Source of the DNA: Niabella sp.
Lineage (GTDB): Bacteria > Bacteroidota > Bacteroidia > Chitinophagales > Chitinophagaceae
DNA: 64,000 bases
Reading direction: 5' to 3'
Assembly: GCA_017744795.1 (NCBI GenBank)
Contig: JAGIAQ010000009.1
Span: 1 to 64,000 of the forward strand
The translations under genes were made by a program, and so were the position numbers. A model generated the notes under the pieces. That model saw only the letters and a list, made by a program, of their open reading frames with translations, did no database searches and was not told the origin of the DNA. Below are positions 1,797 to 44,953 of this stretch, piece after piece. Position 1 is the stretch's first letter. Each line of letters starts with the position of its first letter.

Positions 1797-3668
1797 TTAA
1801 TGCCAGTTTTTCAACGCCGTTATTTTTTTGTCGACTTTGTTTTTATCTCCCGGAACAAGATAAACGGCAAATGTTTTTTTGCTGTTGGCGGGCAATTCTG
1901 TTTCAAAACCGACAATGGTCGTTCCGGGATTGGGCGCATCGTAACTATTAGTGGGCGCCGTGCTCCAGGTTTTAATGGTAACAGGTTGCTCTGCTGCGAT
2001 CTGCAGCAACAGTGTTTTTCCATTCTTTGTCAGCTCAATTTCGGTAGCTGATTTAACGGTGACCGTAGCCGGCGTTACCATCCGCCACTGCATTTTAACG
2101 GATTGATTCGTTGTGGTAATTTCATCCTGTATCAATCCGTATCCATTGTTTACAAGAGCAACACCTCTTTCAGCGCTTTTTATTTGTCCTTTATAAACTC
2201 CCGTGAGGTCAGTTTCCGCAAAACTAAAACCAGCTGCACCGGAAGATTTTGTAATAACAGCCCTTCCTTCCAAACGCTGCAGACTGTCATCAAACGTTAG
2301 TGTGTTATGCGCAAAATTGGTATAGCGGAATACTTTCCAGCGCTCCGATTGTTGCGAACGATCCCAGATATTTAATCCTTTCGATTCCAGCGATTCATAA
2401 TTCTGCATGCCAAAATCCATTGCCCAGCGTACGCCCTTGGCTTCAAAAACAAAGGAGCCTTCATCCATATGCGCATGACTATTGCCGGGCGAGCCCATTT
2501 TGAATCCCAGGAACAACGCGTTTGGATCCGTCCAGCTCGTGCGCATCATTGCAACGGGTGATGGTCCTCCCCCCTCCCAGAATAATTTTTTTGGTGCGGA
2601 GCTATTGGTCAGTTGCAGATCCTTTCCCCAAAGCAGCAGCGTTGGTAAAAAACGATCATGGATCAAAGCATTTTTATTTTTATCGTTGTGCAGGTATTGC
2701 AATTCGTTCCATATTAAGGAAGGATCATTCAATTTTTTTGCAAACCAGAACATGGCACCATTACATTCGGCCCCTGTGCCTGCATCAGAATAATTAAAAG
2801 GAAGACCTGTAGGCGCAATCATTTGCTGCATATAACCGGGCGTTTTTAGGAACCCGGGCAACTGGCTCAGCCCGTAATCCGTTCCCAGCAACTGTTCCAG
2901 TGCATTAATAAAAAACACGTTGAAAGTGGTTCCGTAGCTCCAATAGCCGTAGCCCTCCGGATAAGCCCCATCCGGCGCGTATAATTTCATCGGTTTTTTT
3001 ATGGATTCCACCGCGCGCGCAATGACCTGACTGCATAGTTCGGGCTCCGATTCAAAAATGGCGATAGCACCATAGGTAATGCCCGTATTACAGACCTGGT
3101 TCCAGTTATTATCTATTTTCAGCCAATTGTTGAAATGGGCGTCAAAAGAGGTTTTGATGCCGAAGTTCAAAATAGCTGTTTTTATTTTTTCACGTGATGC
3201 AGGAGCCAGTTCATCATAGAGCCAATCGTAGCCAATGGCAGCGGCCATGGTCATTTCAGCCACATCCAGGTAATGCGAGGGATTCCAGTCTTCAAATGCG
3301 GAAATGGTAAGGAGCTGTTGTGTTGCCGCATCCAGGTATTTTTTCTCATGGGTCATGCGGTACGCATAAGAAAGGAAAAAGATACGACGGATCGCTTCGC
3401 GGGATACGGAGAGCAGGCGCTTGCCGATTTTCTTATGTTCCAATGCTGGTGCAGCTATGATCTTATCGCACTCTTCTAACAAAAGGGTGTTCACTTTTTT
3501 GAAAGCTGCATTTTTATCGATGGCATTTTCAATCTGCTTTTCTTCGCCTTTAACCATTAGGAGCCGCGGATGCGGTTTTGCGGCCAGCTGCTCTAAATGC
3601 GCTTGCCCGTAACCGGTACCAGATGCTAACAGGAGTCCTAAAAATAAAAGAAAGCCAATCGATTTCAT
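1797..3668 (-). CDS. Heparinase II/III family protein (polysaccharide lyase-like), secreted
   Basis: Signal peptide; WNQVCNTGITYGAIA and NSHAHMDEGSFVFEAKGVRWAMDFG motifs typical of heparinase II/III. Confidence 0.88.
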   Translation of the reverse strand: MKSIGFLLFLGLLLASGTGYGQAHLEQLAAKPHPRLLMVKGEEKQIENAIDKNAAFKKVNTLLLEECDKIIAAPALEHKKIGKRLLSVSREAIRRIFFLSYAYRMTHEKKYLDAATQQLLTISAFEDWNPSHYLDVAEMTMAAAIGYDWLYDELAPASREKIKTAILNFGIKTSFDAHFNNWLKIDNNWNQVCNTGITYGAIAIFESEPELCSQVIARAVESIKKPMKLYAPDGAYPEGYGYWSYGTTFNVFFINALEQLLGTDYGLSQLPGFLKTPGYMQQMIAPTGLPFNYSDAGTGAECNGAMFWFAKKLNDPSLIWNELQYLHNDKNKNALIHDRFLPTLLLWGKDLQLTNSSAPKKLFWEGGGPSPVAMMRTSWTDPNALFLGFKMGSPGNSHAHMDEGSFVFEAKGVRWAMDFGMQNYESLESKGLNIWDRSQQSERWKVFRYTNFAHNTLTFDDSLQRLEGRAVITKSSGAAGFSFAETDLTGVYKGQIKSAERGVALVNNGYGLIQDEITTTNQSVKMQWRMVTPATVTVKSATEIELTKNGKTLLLQIAAEQPVTIKTWSTAPTNSYDAPNPGTTIVGFETELPANSKKTFAVYLVPGDKNKVDKKITALKNWH

Positions 3669-3800
3669 AAGAGGATTTTTGAACTATAAAAATAGGAACA
3701 ATGTTGAATTGTTTGATTTTTATTATTTTGGCGTTTTAACCAATAGTGAGTGTCATCTAAAGGAATCGTTGACAGCACACTAGCATAACATTCAACTTCA

Positions 3801-23415: not shown

Positions 23416-24543
23416 ATGAACAATCCGATTGCTGTTAAACCCGGCCGGTTCCTGGCCCTTGATATTTTCCGGGGTATGACTATTTGCTTTATGATCATCG
23501 TGAACACGGGCGGTCCCAACCCCTTTCCCGAATTAAGACATGCGCAATGGAACGGGTTTACCTTAACCGACCTGGTATTCCCGTCCTTTTTATTTGCCGT
23601 GGGAAATGCTATTGCCTTTTCAAAATCAAAATGGGATCAGCAATCCAATAAAGAAGTGCTTTTAAAAATATTGAAGCGGACCTGTCTTTTATTTTTGATC
23701 GGCTACCTGATGTACTGGCTGCCCTTTGTAAAAATAGATCCGCAAAACAATATACGCCCCTTCCCTATCGGTGAAACCCGGATCTTTGGGGTGTTGCAGC
23801 GTATTGCCCTTTGTTATGGGATCGGCGCGCTGATCATTCGTTTCGCATCTGTAAGAACGATCATTGTTACCAGTATTTGCCTGCTATTGGGCTATTGGTT
23901 TGTTATGATGGCCTTTGGCGATTACACCGTAAATGGTGCAGCCGAAACAAAACTGGATATACTGTTATTTACCCGGAGTCACTTATATATAAAAGACCCA
24001 GCGCGCGCTTTCGATCCCGAGGGATTTTTAAGCACCTTTCCTGCCATCGTAAATGTATTGATCGGATATCTCGCAGGCATTCATATCCGCAAGAATCCAA
24101 AAAGCTATGAGATGCTGGCCCGGCTGGCAGTCGCTGGATTTTTATTACTGGCGCTAGGCTATTTATGGAATCTTGCATTCCCGATCAATAAAAAACTATG
24201 GACCAGCAGTTTTGTTTGTCTGACCACCGGCCTCGACTGTCTGATCATCGCCACCATCCTGTATTTCATCGATTTTAAAGAAAAACGGACAGGCGTTTTC
24301 TTTTTCGAGGTCTTTGGAAAAAATGCCTTATTCATTTATCTGTTCAGCGAAGTGGTGCCCATATTATTGTCTGCCTGGCATGTTCCGGACAAGCGCAATT
24401 TTTTCAAAGTAATGTACGATACAAGCTTCGGCCAGTTAGGAACAGGGCATATTCCATCGTTGTTATGGTCCGTAAGTTTTATGTTGGTGTGTTGGCTGGT
24501 AGGGTATTTTCTTTATAAGAGGAAGTTGTTTATCAGGTTATAA
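23416..24543 (+). CDS. DUF5009 / heparan-alpha-glucosaminide N-acetyltransferase-like membrane acyltransferase
   Basis: RFLALDIFRGMTICFMIIVNTGG and LRHAQWNGFTLTDLVFPSFLFAVG motifs, multiple TM segments. Confidence 0.92.
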   Translation: MNNPIAVKPGRFLALDIFRGMTICFMIIVNTGGPNPFPELRHAQWNGFTLTDLVFPSFLFAVGNAIAFSKSKWDQQSNKEVLLKILKRTCLLFLIGYLMYWLPFVKIDPQNNIRPFPIGETRIFGVLQRIALCYGIGALIIRFASVRTIIVTSICLLLGYWFVMMAFGDYTVNGAAETKLDILLFTRSHLYIKDPARAFDPEGFLSTFPAIVNVLIGYLAGIHIRKNPKSYEMLARLAVAGFLLLALGYLWNLAFPINKKLWTSSFVCLTTGLDCLIIATILYFIDFKEKRTGVFFFEVFGKNALFIYLFSEVVPILLSAWHVPDKRNFFKVMYDTSFGQLGTGHIPSLLWSVSFMLVCWLVGYFLYKRKLFIRL

Positions 24544-24591: not shown

Positions 24592-26070
24592 ATGTGCAAG
24601 CGATATTTTTTTCAGTTATTGTTTTATTGTGCCATTGCCGTACGACTTTCTGCGCAAACAAAGCCTAATATTGTTTTCATCTTCGCAGATGACCTCAGAC
24701 CGGATTTGGGGTGCTATGGAAATACGATTATTAAGTCCCCCAATATGGATCGGCTGGCGGGTGAAGGAATCCTGTTTACCAATCAATACGCGGCCGTGCC
24801 TACCTGTGGCGCATCCAGGGTTAGCTTGCTAACAGGAAAGTACCCGGCAGAAAAGGCCGCATTAGAAAATGAAGCCGCTGAGAAAATGATCTCAGGCAAA
24901 CCGCCCGGCATTGCTCCGGAAACATTTATTGAACAATTAAAACGAAATGGCTATTACACGGTAGGCATCGGAAAGATCAGCCATTCGGCCGACGGGTACC
25001 TTTATGGGTATTCAGAACCACGCAGCAACAAATTGGAATTGCCTAACAGCTGGAATGAAATGCTTTTTAATCCCGGCCAATGGAAAACCGGGTGGAACGC
25101 TTTCTTTGGCTATGCCGGCGGCTTTAACCGACAAGGGAAAAAAGGACAGGTAAAGCCATACGAAGCCGGGGAATGCAATGATGAAGGATACCCTGATGGC
25201 TTAACGGCGAACCTGGCAGTAGAAAAGATCCGCGCACTGGCCGCAACCGGGCAGCCGTTTTTTCTGGGTGTCGGTTTTTTTAAACCCCACCTGCCTTTTA
25301 ATGCGCCAAGGCGTTATTGGGATTTATATGATGAAGCTACCCTTACACTTACCCCATCACCTGATATTCCTTCAGGCGTGAATCCGGCAAGTTTGAATCA
25401 AAGCGCTGAATTCAACCAGTATAAACTGGGGGATGAAGCGGCCAGCTTGTCCGCGCCGCTTTCAGATGCTTACGCCCGAAAGCTCCGGCACGCCTATTAT
25501 GCAGCAATCAGTTATATTGACGCGCAGGTGGGCAAAGTATTGGAGGCTTTAAAAGAAAACAACCTGGATAAAAACACAATCATCGTTGTATGGGGAGATC
25601 ATGGATGGCATCTGGGTGACGACCGGGTTTGGGGAAAGCATACCATTTTTGAATGGGCGCTGCGCAGTACTTTTATTTTAAAAACACCCGCAATGAAAAA
25701 AGGAACTGTTCGCAAGGAGATCATTAGTGCAACAGACATTTACCCTACCCTGATGGACCTATGTAAACTTAAGATGCCTTATAATGGAGATGGAGAAAGC
25801 TTTGCCAGATTATTGCGGCATCCAGGAGCTACCGCCTGGAGAAATACGGCCATCAGTTACTTTAATAAAGGAATTACCATCCGGACCAGCCGTTACCGGT
25901 TTACCCGGTATTTTCGGGAGGCTATGCCGGTGGTTGAATTGTATGATCATCAGCAGGATCCCTGGGAAAATAAAAATATCGCTGCCGCAAAACCCGAAGT
26001 TGTGAAAGAAATGGAGCATACATGGGAGAAGGAAATCCGACAGGCTCAAAAAATGTATGAGGGCAGGTAG
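24592..26070 (+). CDS. Sulfatase (iduronate-2-sulfatase-like)
   Basis: KPNIVFIFADDLRPDLGCYG, formylglycine motif CGASRVSLLTGKYP, WGDHGWHLGDDRVWGKHTIFEWALR. Confidence 0.95.
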   Translation: MCKRYFFQLLFYCAIAVRLSAQTKPNIVFIFADDLRPDLGCYGNTIIKSPNMDRLAGEGILFTNQYAAVPTCGASRVSLLTGKYPAEKAALENEAAEKMISGKPPGIAPETFIEQLKRNGYYTVGIGKISHSADGYLYGYSEPRSNKLELPNSWNEMLFNPGQWKTGWNAFFGYAGGFNRQGKKGQVKPYEAGECNDEGYPDGLTANLAVEKIRALAATGQPFFLGVGFFKPHLPFNAPRRYWDLYDEATLTLTPSPDIPSGVNPASLNQSAEFNQYKLGDEAASLSAPLSDAYARKLRHAYYAAISYIDAQVGKVLEALKENNLDKNTIIVVWGDHGWHLGDDRVWGKHTIFEWALRSTFILKTPAMKKGTVRKEIISATDIYPTLMDLCKLKMPYNGDGESFARLLRHPGATAWRNTAISYFNKGITIRTSRYRFTRYFREAMPVVELYDHQQDPWENKNIAAAKPEVVKEMEHTWEKEIRQAQKMYEGR

Positions 26071-26096: not shown

Positions 26097-26381
26097 TTAA
26101 GCAGATATAGGAGCAACCCTGATCTGCCCTCCTACAGCCTTCAAAACTTTCATTATTGTTGAAAACTGTGGTTTGGCGCCGTCGGACAATGCTTTATATA
26201 AACTTGGCCGGCTCAATCCTGTTTCTTCAGCAATTTTAGTCATTCCTATTGCCTTTGCAACATGCCCGATTGCTGCAATTATTTCAGAATTGTTTCCTTC
26301 TTCCAAAACCACATTAAGATACTCGGCGATTGTTTCGTTGCTATCTAAATAATCTGCAATATCAAACTTTGAGGTCTCCAT
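26097..26381 (-). CDS. Addiction-module antidote-like HTH protein (HigA family)
   Basis: FDIADYLDSNETIAEYLNVVLEEG...IAAIGHVAKAIGMTKIAEETGLSRPSLYKALSDGAKPQFSTIMKVLKAVG. Confidence 0.9.
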   Translation of the reverse strand: METSKFDIADYLDSNETIAEYLNVVLEEGNNSEIIAAIGHVAKAIGMTKIAEETGLSRPSLYKALSDGAKPQFSTIMKVLKAVGGQIRVAPISA

Positions 26382-26384
26382 CTT

Positions 26385-26432
26385 TTATTTTCTTAATCTA
26401 TTCGAAATCTCTTTTGCCTTTTGGTCTGCTGG
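26385..26432 (-). pseudogene. Possible C-terminal remnant of a HigB/RelE-like toxin (PADQKAKEISNRLRK*)
   Basis: Directly after the Abi-like stop (26433-26435), in the same frame; resembles the KAKEIA-rich tail of HigB-type toxins; its stop lies 3 nt before the antitoxin ATG. Confidence 0.5.
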
Positions 26433-27139
26433 TTATATGTCTTCTGCACTGACAATATTTTCTCTAACGCGATCAAATTCTTTTATCCATTCTATCAGTT
26501 CTGGGTCTATCCAGATTAGTATTTCCGCTATAGCATTATAAATTTCTGCAGGATATGCGAAATCAATAACAGAACCGTTAAAACATATTGGTTCATTATG
26601 ATTTATCCTGTTTCTAAAACGTCTTATTTTGTTAAGCCTGTCGCAGACATCGCTTCGCCCATGCCCGGGAGGAAAATTATTAAAAATCTGAATGGGTCTG
26701 CCCGATAACAATTTATAATGATGCACTTCAAATAAATCAGTCCAAAAGCCCAGGGATTGATCTGCAATAATTTTACCGCTTGTAACAGGAACTTCCAAAC
26801 GTCTGAGTCGTTTTTCGGATTTTTCTACGGATACTTTTAGAAAGTCATTTATAATCTGTTTTCCTGTCCTTCGCTCAATATGGGTAAGCGAAGGAGCAGT
26901 CATAAACCGGGCCTTTTGATTGATAATCCAACCGGGTCTGAGAAGTGAATTGTCAATATTGTATTTATCCGATTTCTCACTAATACTTCTAATGTGCCTA
27001 ACAAAGGATGAAAGGATTGTGCTATCTTCAAGTTCGCTATATATAGTTTAATGGCGCTCCCCTCTTGATTATTGGTTGCAATGAGGTATCTGCCAATGCG
27101 CTGGGAAGAGAGATATTCTCTTATTTTTTGGAACTTCAT
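26433..27139 (-). pseudogene. Abi family protein (HEPN-type, Abi_2/AbiF-like), split into two ORFs by an apparent 1-nt frameshift near 26931-26936
   Basis: ORF 26900..27139 gives the N-terminus (MKFQKIREYLSSQRIGRYLIATNNQEGSAIKLYIANLKIAQSFHPLLGTLEVLVRNRIN) and ORF 26433..26903 the C-terminus (SGKIIADQSLGFWTDLF, HEPN RxxxxH motif RNRINH). WIINQKARF upstream of the second ATG is in the second frame. Confidence 0.85.
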
Positions 27140-27189
27140 AGGTTAATTATATTTTGCAAATATCGGAAATACTGTGTACCTTTACTTTG

Positions 27190-27273
27190 TGATGCTTAGT
27201 CAAGCCTCTTGCTATTGAGCAACGTAACTAAGTTTAAGAGTTTAAAGGGTCGCAATAGGCGGCTCTTTTTTTT
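27190..27273 (+). ncRNA. Candidate structured small RNA with intrinsic terminator, divergent from the Abi-like gene
   Basis: CTTAGT(27195-27200)/ACTAAG(27227-27232) stem enclosing TTGCT-ATTG-AGCAA, then GGGTCGC-AATAG-GCGGCTC-T8 (27247-27273); TACCTTTA promoter-like box at 27177-27184; no ORF. Confidence 0.55.
27247..27273 (+). terminator. Intrinsic terminator of the candidate sRNA
   Basis: 7-bp stem GGGTCGC/GCGGCTC (with G-U wobbles), loop AATAG, followed by eight T. Confidence 0.7.
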
Positions 27274-27401
27274 GTAAAAAGTTGTCAATTTTTCCGTTGA
27301 TGCTCACAAATCTGTTTCGCAGCTAGTTATTGATCTTTTTCCTTTCCGAGTTGTAGCTGCACCATCTGCCTAGCCACTCAAACAGCAATTTAATCCTACC
27401 T

Positions 27402-44416: not shown

Positions 44417-44543
44417 ATATTTTTTATACAGCTTGCAAAAACAGGTTTTTAATCGATAAGCAAGACAATTTTTTCTCACAGATTTTTCGAATTCCCGGCC
44501 AAATATGATTTCCGCCTTTAGCGGAAGAAAAGTTTTAAAAAAT

Positions 44544-44953
44544 GTTACAAGCCTGTAAGCCGGATTCTGTACCCCCGCCACGGGCGGGGGCGGTTATCAT
44601 TTATCTGTTCAAAGAGTTACCTCAATGAATCAATCTGCCTACCCTTCCTGCCATCCCGCCGGGGCGAAATAGTGAACGGGCCGCTCACCTTTTACCAGCT
44701 GCCTGGTTAAAAGCAGGATTTACATGGCATTTCAGCATACAAGGTTTACCCGCATTCTGTATTACTACAGAACACCGTGAGCTCTTACCTCACATTTTCA
44801 CCCTCATCCTGCCTTGCGACTGGACAGTTATTTTCTGTGGCACTATCTGTTGCTCTGCCGAAACAGAACACCCGGCTGTTCACCGGTGCATTGCCCTGCG
44901 CTGTCCGGACTTTCCTTTCCCGCCGGGGCGGGAACGATAACCCGGCTTGTAAC
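44544..44953 (-). ncRNA. rnpB: RNase P RNA (bacterial class A-like)
   Basis: Minus strand begins GTTACAAGCCGGGTTATC...GGAAAGGAAAGTCCGGACAGCGCAGGGCAATGCACCGG and ends GTACAGAATCCGGCTTACAGGCTTGTAAC; conserved 5' and 3' RNase P signatures pair at the termini. Confidence 0.93.

Follow-up and report, generated by a model that had tools for sequence, protein, structure and literature searches.

Within a window of 64,000 nucleotides of Niabella sp. DNA, which is the whole stretch analysed here, an Abi-family gene, a HigA-like helix-turn-helix (HTH) gene and a divergent segment that lacks an open reading frame lie side by side, raising the question of whether the three belong together and, if the Abi protein is a toxin, what would hold it in check. 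A preliminary description had proposed a non-standard abortive-infection module in which the HTH protein, an RNA or both control a HEPN RNase. The best explanation, and one that we hold with reasonable though not full confidence, is that the locus brings together two unrelated relics: a decayed HEPN RNase/RNA-antitoxin module and an orphan HTH antitoxin. We present below the protein, the HTH gene and the RNA in turn, weighing the alternative readings where the evidence bears on them.

The Abi gene and its HEPN family

The Abi gene spans positions 27139-26436 on the reverse strand, with its stop codon at 26435-26433. The HEPN-like protein with an RNRINH motif that had been described is present, as two pieces in different frames: a 79-aa N-terminal piece that runs up to the frame change (26903..27139, reverse strand) and a C-terminal piece (26436..26948, reverse strand) that carries the motif R-N-R-I-N-H, encoded at 26615-26598. 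Both pieces were delimited from the open reading frames and from alignment with homologues. The N-terminal piece shares 59-68% identity with intact homologues (L032, L033, L035, L037 and L046), and alignment with intact relatives joined the two pieces into one protein of ~235 aa interrupted by a single lesion near 26940 (26936..26950). Profile searches returned no Pfam match for the window pieces, PF07751 (Abi_2) included, and the PADLOC PD-T4-5 profile matched both of them (7e-7 and 3e-6).

A set of 299 genomes from the same family, together with a genome collection, supplied the Abi homologues, whose hosts were Chitinophagaceae, Flavobacterium, Pedobacter, Bacteroides/Phocaeicola, Parabacteroides and one member of the Lachnospiraceae. 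The PD-T4-5 profile matched 21/21 homologues (best 3.8e-17) and the PADLOC AbiD profile 13/21; PF07751 gave a weak match in 20/21 (best 4.4e-6), with homologue L033 scoring 22.7 bits against a cut-off of 25.6. In the alignment of these proteins (A1), R55, N56, W71, N74-Q75-K76, R173, R176, N177, H181 and N182-E183-P184 were invariant. The AlphaFold model of L033 (pLDDT 90.1), when compared with the PDB by Foldseek, returned as its first match 8vz6, the PbAbiF dimer with its ncRNA (probability 1.00, TM 0.58); the E-value of this match was a modest 9.8e-3, and the next PDB match had a probability of only 0.15. An AbiF-type HEPN fold, as indicated by 8vz6, was thus found together with the R-N-x-x-x-H motif, whose R176 and H181 are invariant in A1. 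The only PDB match obtained by sequence, 7yji, was weak and probably due to chance. The window Abi protein belongs to a family of short (~235 aa) HEPN proteins in the AbiF/AbiD superfamily. This family is close to PD-T4-5, an anti-phage gene that Vassallo et al. 2022 (PMC9519451) call a "distant relative of AbiF/D" and associate with toxin-antitoxin (TA)-like abortive infection.

Because the gene is frameshifted, the window copy is probably a relic, dead on the protein side. The gene nevertheless shows no second lesion and retains both the HEPN motif and the natural end of the protein, and the window comes from a draft assembly of 241 contigs, all of which would suit a living gene in which the frame change stems from faulty sequencing or assembly or is bypassed by programmed frameshifting. 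We give this reading a real but minor chance, given that the frame is open at this site in most relatives, that an otherwise invariant G is replaced by R in the window copy, and that abi is also broken, by stops or frameshifts, at seven other loci (L012, L018, L025, L053, L058, L072 and L128). Since other loci of the family carry broken abi genes too, decay of abi appears to be common.

The HTH gene and the genomic setting

The HTH gene (26097..26381, reverse strand) encodes an orphan HigA-like antitoxin of the dnstrm_HI1420 family (PF21716, 8.6e-45; TIGR02684, 8.2e-33). Four of its close relatives (79-85%, L074-L077) are each preceded by an HI1419-type toxin gene whose product ends in KDIEKAKEIWNKLKK and a stop, or similarly. 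No intact HI1419-type toxin gene was found upstream of the window HTH gene. At the place of the toxin tail, within 26432-26388, the window reads ADQKAKEISNRLRK and a stop, leaving the last ~14 codons, and comparison with the intact toxin tails of relatives delimits the C-terminal remnant PADQKAKEISNRLRK, again ending in a stop, at 26388..26432 on the reverse strand. The toxin was thus lost but for its end. The earlier observation of a HigA-like gene without its toxin therefore stands as regards an intact toxin, and is amended in that the toxin survives as a C-terminal remnant.

The position of the HTH gene, adjacent to abi on the same strand and ~50 nt past the stop codon of abi, is what would be expected if its product were an antitoxin or repressor of Abi, as had been suggested. 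We consider this most improbable: the HTH gene was absent from every other Abi locus, HI1419-type toxins are the neighbours of its own relatives, and the last codons of such a toxin directly precede it in the window. Since it adjoins no other Abi locus, the gene does not belong to the Abi/RNA module; on these comparisons it is a bystander, the antitoxin left over from a TA pair of the HI1419/HI1420 type that is unrelated to Abi. It resembles the HI1419/HI1420-type (HigBA-like) type II TA systems in being a clear dnstrm_HI1420 member and differs from them in that its toxin is gone save for the last codons. The Abi unit abuts the scar of this lost toxin.

The surrounding DNA had been called housekeeping, a fair description. 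In five genomes of the same genus (L082 and L084-L087), a DUF5009-type gene (window 23416-24543) lies directly before dciA (window 27402), and no sulfatase gene, HTH gene, Abi gene or RNA was present between the two. By this comparison, what lies upstream of dciA here is an accessory insert; no direct repeats were found at its borders. A sulfatase gene (PF00884, window 24592-26070) adjoins the locus, and since it is missing from the same-genus site, the insert may extend beyond the Abi/HTH unit. Elsewhere in the window, the class A RNase P RNA (44540-44953, reverse strand) was the sole Rfam match.

A conserved RNA transcribed away from abi

The preliminary description had placed an ORF-less RNA at 27190-27273, and a stem-loop and an intrinsic terminator were indeed seen there and are conserved in relatives. 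The element, ~85 nt with its terminator, lies at about 27190-27275 on the forward strand, where a model of the RNA (R1) matches 27189-27250 with 76.6 bits. Its P1 stem (27194-27200 with 27227-27233) encloses internal loops, an invariant CCTCT within an internal loop (27205-27209) and the P2 stem (27209-27212 with 27219-27222); an intrinsic terminator of 10 pairs, 5 of them G-C, and a T run follow at 27244-27275. Homologous RNAs share this order: P1 (CTTRGT/ACYAAG), an internal loop with AAGCCUCU, P2, CGUA, P1' and a T-run terminator. No Rfam model, including RF03085, matched the RNA in the window or in the homologues, at either gathering or E-value settings.

Folding of the window sequence by itself gave a weak signal (z -1.85; 10/200 shuffles as good), whereas comparison with relatives puts the structure far beyond chance. 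In an alignment of 42 sequences (A2) with 13 pairs, 8 of which show double changes, 99.5% of the pair cells were paired compared with 89.0% in shuffles, 68 cells were changed on both sides compared with 15.3, and the covariation score was 0.381 compared with 0.167; none of these values was reached in 500 shuffles. Sliding the partner column by 1-3 positions lowered pairing to 23-40%. Moreover, 543/546 pair cells form when the sequence is read on the divergent strand and 452/546 when it is read on the abi strand, the deficit arising from G-U pairs. The divergent RNA is a real conserved structured element.

Upstream of the RNA lies TAnnTTTG, the Bacteroidota -7 box. It occurs exactly, on the divergent strand, in 46/54 loci, at a distance of 26-29 nt from the GCCTCT that follows (27 in nearly all cases), where shuffling would place it at this fixed spacing in about 3.5. 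The corresponding window sequence, TACCTTTA (27177..27184, forward strand), lies 27 nt before GCCTCT and is one base off the consensus, and the promoter of the window RNA may therefore be weaker than those of its relatives. Two other readings of the element were rejected. Pair counts, terminator and promoter direction rule out an RNA on the abi strand, and a dciA leader is ruled out because the RNA stops at a terminator of its own and because dciA is not preceded by it in genomes of the same genus.

The conservation of this RNA beside Abi homologues, proposed earlier as a check, was found. R1 detected it opposite abi at all 50 of the closer homologue loci, a count that is not independent of the model, as most of those loci were used to build it; genome-wide searches are the fairer measure. 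Among the 299 family genomes, R1 matched 18 places, 15 of which lie beside an abi gene found independently by protein search; of the other three, L102 lies where a contig ends, and L106 and L108 lack a recognisable abi. A search of 396 genomes across the phylum added five places: two with intact abi (L126 and L129), one with broken abi (L128), one near a contig end (L125) and one without abi (L127). No R1 match was found in the sampled genomes of the same genus. Furthermore, RNA and protein distances are correlated (Mantel r 0.67, 0/5000 permutations). Together, this co-occurrence bears out the pairing of an Abi/HEPN protein with a structured RNA.

At loci where abi is broken (the window, L053, L058 and L072), the RNA is intact, scoring 73-77 bits. 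No closer abi locus without the RNA was seen, though places with the RNA only do exist and the sample is not unbiased. Retention of the RNA beside broken abi, together with these RNA-only places, yields the asymmetry expected of a toxin and its antitoxin. The copies without a recognisable abi (L106:1048-1113, L108:1501-1540 and L127 at about 1501-1562) could possibly be stand-alone antitoxins. Two loci carry additional copies: L067 has two ~1 kb apart (2710-2773 and 3690-3753), and L040 has a full copy (3509-3570) and a degraded one (3726-3771) upstream of one abi gene.

More distant relatives were also surveyed. Most of the more distant Bacteroidota homologues have shorter divergent hairpins, with the box before them and the T run directly after P1'; L016 and L030 seem to differ in kind, and L025 is harder to assign. 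Six homologues on gammaproteobacterial plasmids (L110, L115 and L117-L120; Pantoea, Klebsiella, Xanthomonas, Aeromonas and two Pseudomonas) likewise have a divergent hairpin RNA, in which inspection revealed CTCTCCC and GGTGATGAC flanking P2, a TATA-like -10 element and terminators. The divergent RNA of these plasmids, again adjacent to the Abi gene, forms a second subfamily. CCTCT is present in many of these hairpin RNAs, those of the distant Bacteroidota and of the plasmids taken together. In addition, a PD-T4-5-like gene on an E. coli plasmid (L121, 4e-24) faces a divergent stretch that holds TTGACA/TATATG and hairpins and in which no gene is listed.

Relation to AbiF RNAs and a proposed mechanism

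RNA antitoxins are already known for AbiF, namely RCd22 of C. difficile and AbiFr of PbAbiF (PMC12373285, PMC12737573), which takes away from the claim of a non-standard module; what remains non-standard is the divergent orientation of the RNA and its lack of an Rfam match. The likeness to these systems (RCd22; AbiFr, 8vz6; RF03085) extends from the HEPN fold and RNxxxH motif to a structured RNA encoded right beside the gene and to a hairpin with AAGCCUCU just inside P1, common to the divergent RNA and the RF03085 consensus (CCCGCC-A-AGC-CUCUCAACGAU-GCU-CAAAUC-GGCGGG). In contrast, the RNA described here is encoded opposite its gene and has a separate promoter box and terminator and usually one copy of the motif, and the protein is shorter (235 aa), with a weak PF07751 match. 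As a control, RF03085 matched the phiC2 locus L130 and also L131, and R1 did not match either of them; no RF03085 RNA was found upstream on the Abi strand in the window or homologues, where the RNA is divergent. Common descent of the two RNAs is likely, judging by the striking AAGCCUCU that both have just inside P1, and is left unproven because neither model crosses over to the other's loci.

At all three AbiF loci examined (L130, L131 and L001), the RNA is on the same strand as the gene. The last of these lies in the window's own genome (contig C144), with a true AbiF gene at 2298-1255 on the reverse strand (8vz6 match 2e-63; PADLOC AbiD 5e-81) and, upstream on the same strand, a TAnnTTTG box and a hairpin RNA at about 2270-2230 without an Rfam match. 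The divergent arrangement differs from that of the AbiF RNAs at these three loci, and divergent AbiF RNAs may have been described before.

Other known systems offer partial parallels. A presumed RNase toxin held by an RNA recalls the type III TA systems (ToxIN, CptNI and TenpNI). Canonical type III systems have tandem RNA repeats upstream of the toxin gene and on its strand, whereas here a single divergent motif is present at nearly all loci (L067 has two). Likeness to PD-T4-5 rests on the strong PADLOC match to all 21 homologues and to both window pieces, and on the divergent promoter-like site and hairpins of L121; the difference is that the available text of its description (PMC9519451) presents a single gene and mentions no RNA partner.

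In the module that we propose, a short PD-T4-5-like HEPN RNase, frameshifted in the window, would be paired with an intact ~85-nt RNA that has a promoter and a terminator of its own and is transcribed away from abi. Where the module is intact, a P1/P2 hairpin is the most likely fold of the RNA; the conserved unpaired CUC of this hairpin, with the neighbouring bases, would contact the HEPN dimer at the RNase site and so keep the enzyme inactive. Phage infection might then stop the supply of RNA or destabilise the complex, and the freed RNase would cleave RNA, leading to cell arrest. Protein family and fold, motif, divergent RNA, strand, promoter box, terminator, covariation and co-inheritance were seen in this analysis; Abi toxicity, RNA binding, neutralisation and phage defence we infer by analogy with AbiF. 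The proposal leans on the AbiF precedent, since RCd22 binds the toxic AbiF directly and neutralises it both in cis and in trans, for which it needs its stems, and since AbiF itself requires R202/H207 (PMC12373285). The RNA and Abi are a real conserved module, probably type-III-like, in a divergent arrangement, in which the RNA probably acts as the antidote to Abi. Control of Abi by an RNA is thus the part of the earlier proposal that conserved pairing favours, and control by the HTH protein the part that is not supported.

A different role, regulation of abi expression by mRNA base pairing or promoter interference, would accord with an RNA start only ~50 nt from the abi start codon and with the frequency at which divergent transcription units regulate one another. 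We regard it as rather unlikely compared with a protein-binding antitoxin: the RNA runs away from abi without overlapping its coding region, conservation peaks in loop bases (CCUCU and CGUA) within the hairpin, as in protein-binding RNAs, the closest structural relative of Abi is bound by RNA (8vz6), and C. difficile AbiF is neutralised by one (PMC12373285). A guide function, whereby protein and RNA would base-pair with phage RNA as a Cas13-like precursor, draws on the proposal that AbiD/F HEPN proteins are Cas13 ancestors (PMC12165695), and is highly improbable. Unlike Cas13 and the type VI CRISPR systems, the loci have a single conserved hairpin with neither a variable guide nor a spacer-like or repeat array, the short P2 loop being the sole strongly variable part, and the literature presents AbiF as a toxin that has an RNA for its antitoxin (PMC12737573).

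An antidote role for the RNA, if extended to the wider relatives, would define a large plasmid and chromosomal class of AbiD/PD-T4-5-like HEPN toxins under divergent single-hairpin RNA antitoxins, spread over Bacteroidota, Proteobacteria and at least one Lachnospiraceae genome, distinct from the same-strand type III systems and not in Rfam, with PD-T4-5 itself having such an RNA; for this broader claim, we see the chances as evenly balanced. The RNA family is directly testable with intact natural loci. If the claim is true, a second, divergent RNA architecture in another AbiD/F clade would show how evolution rearranged the RNA partner, and the RNA would be a candidate for the missing antitoxin of PD-T4-5-type genes, which have been described as single-gene systems.
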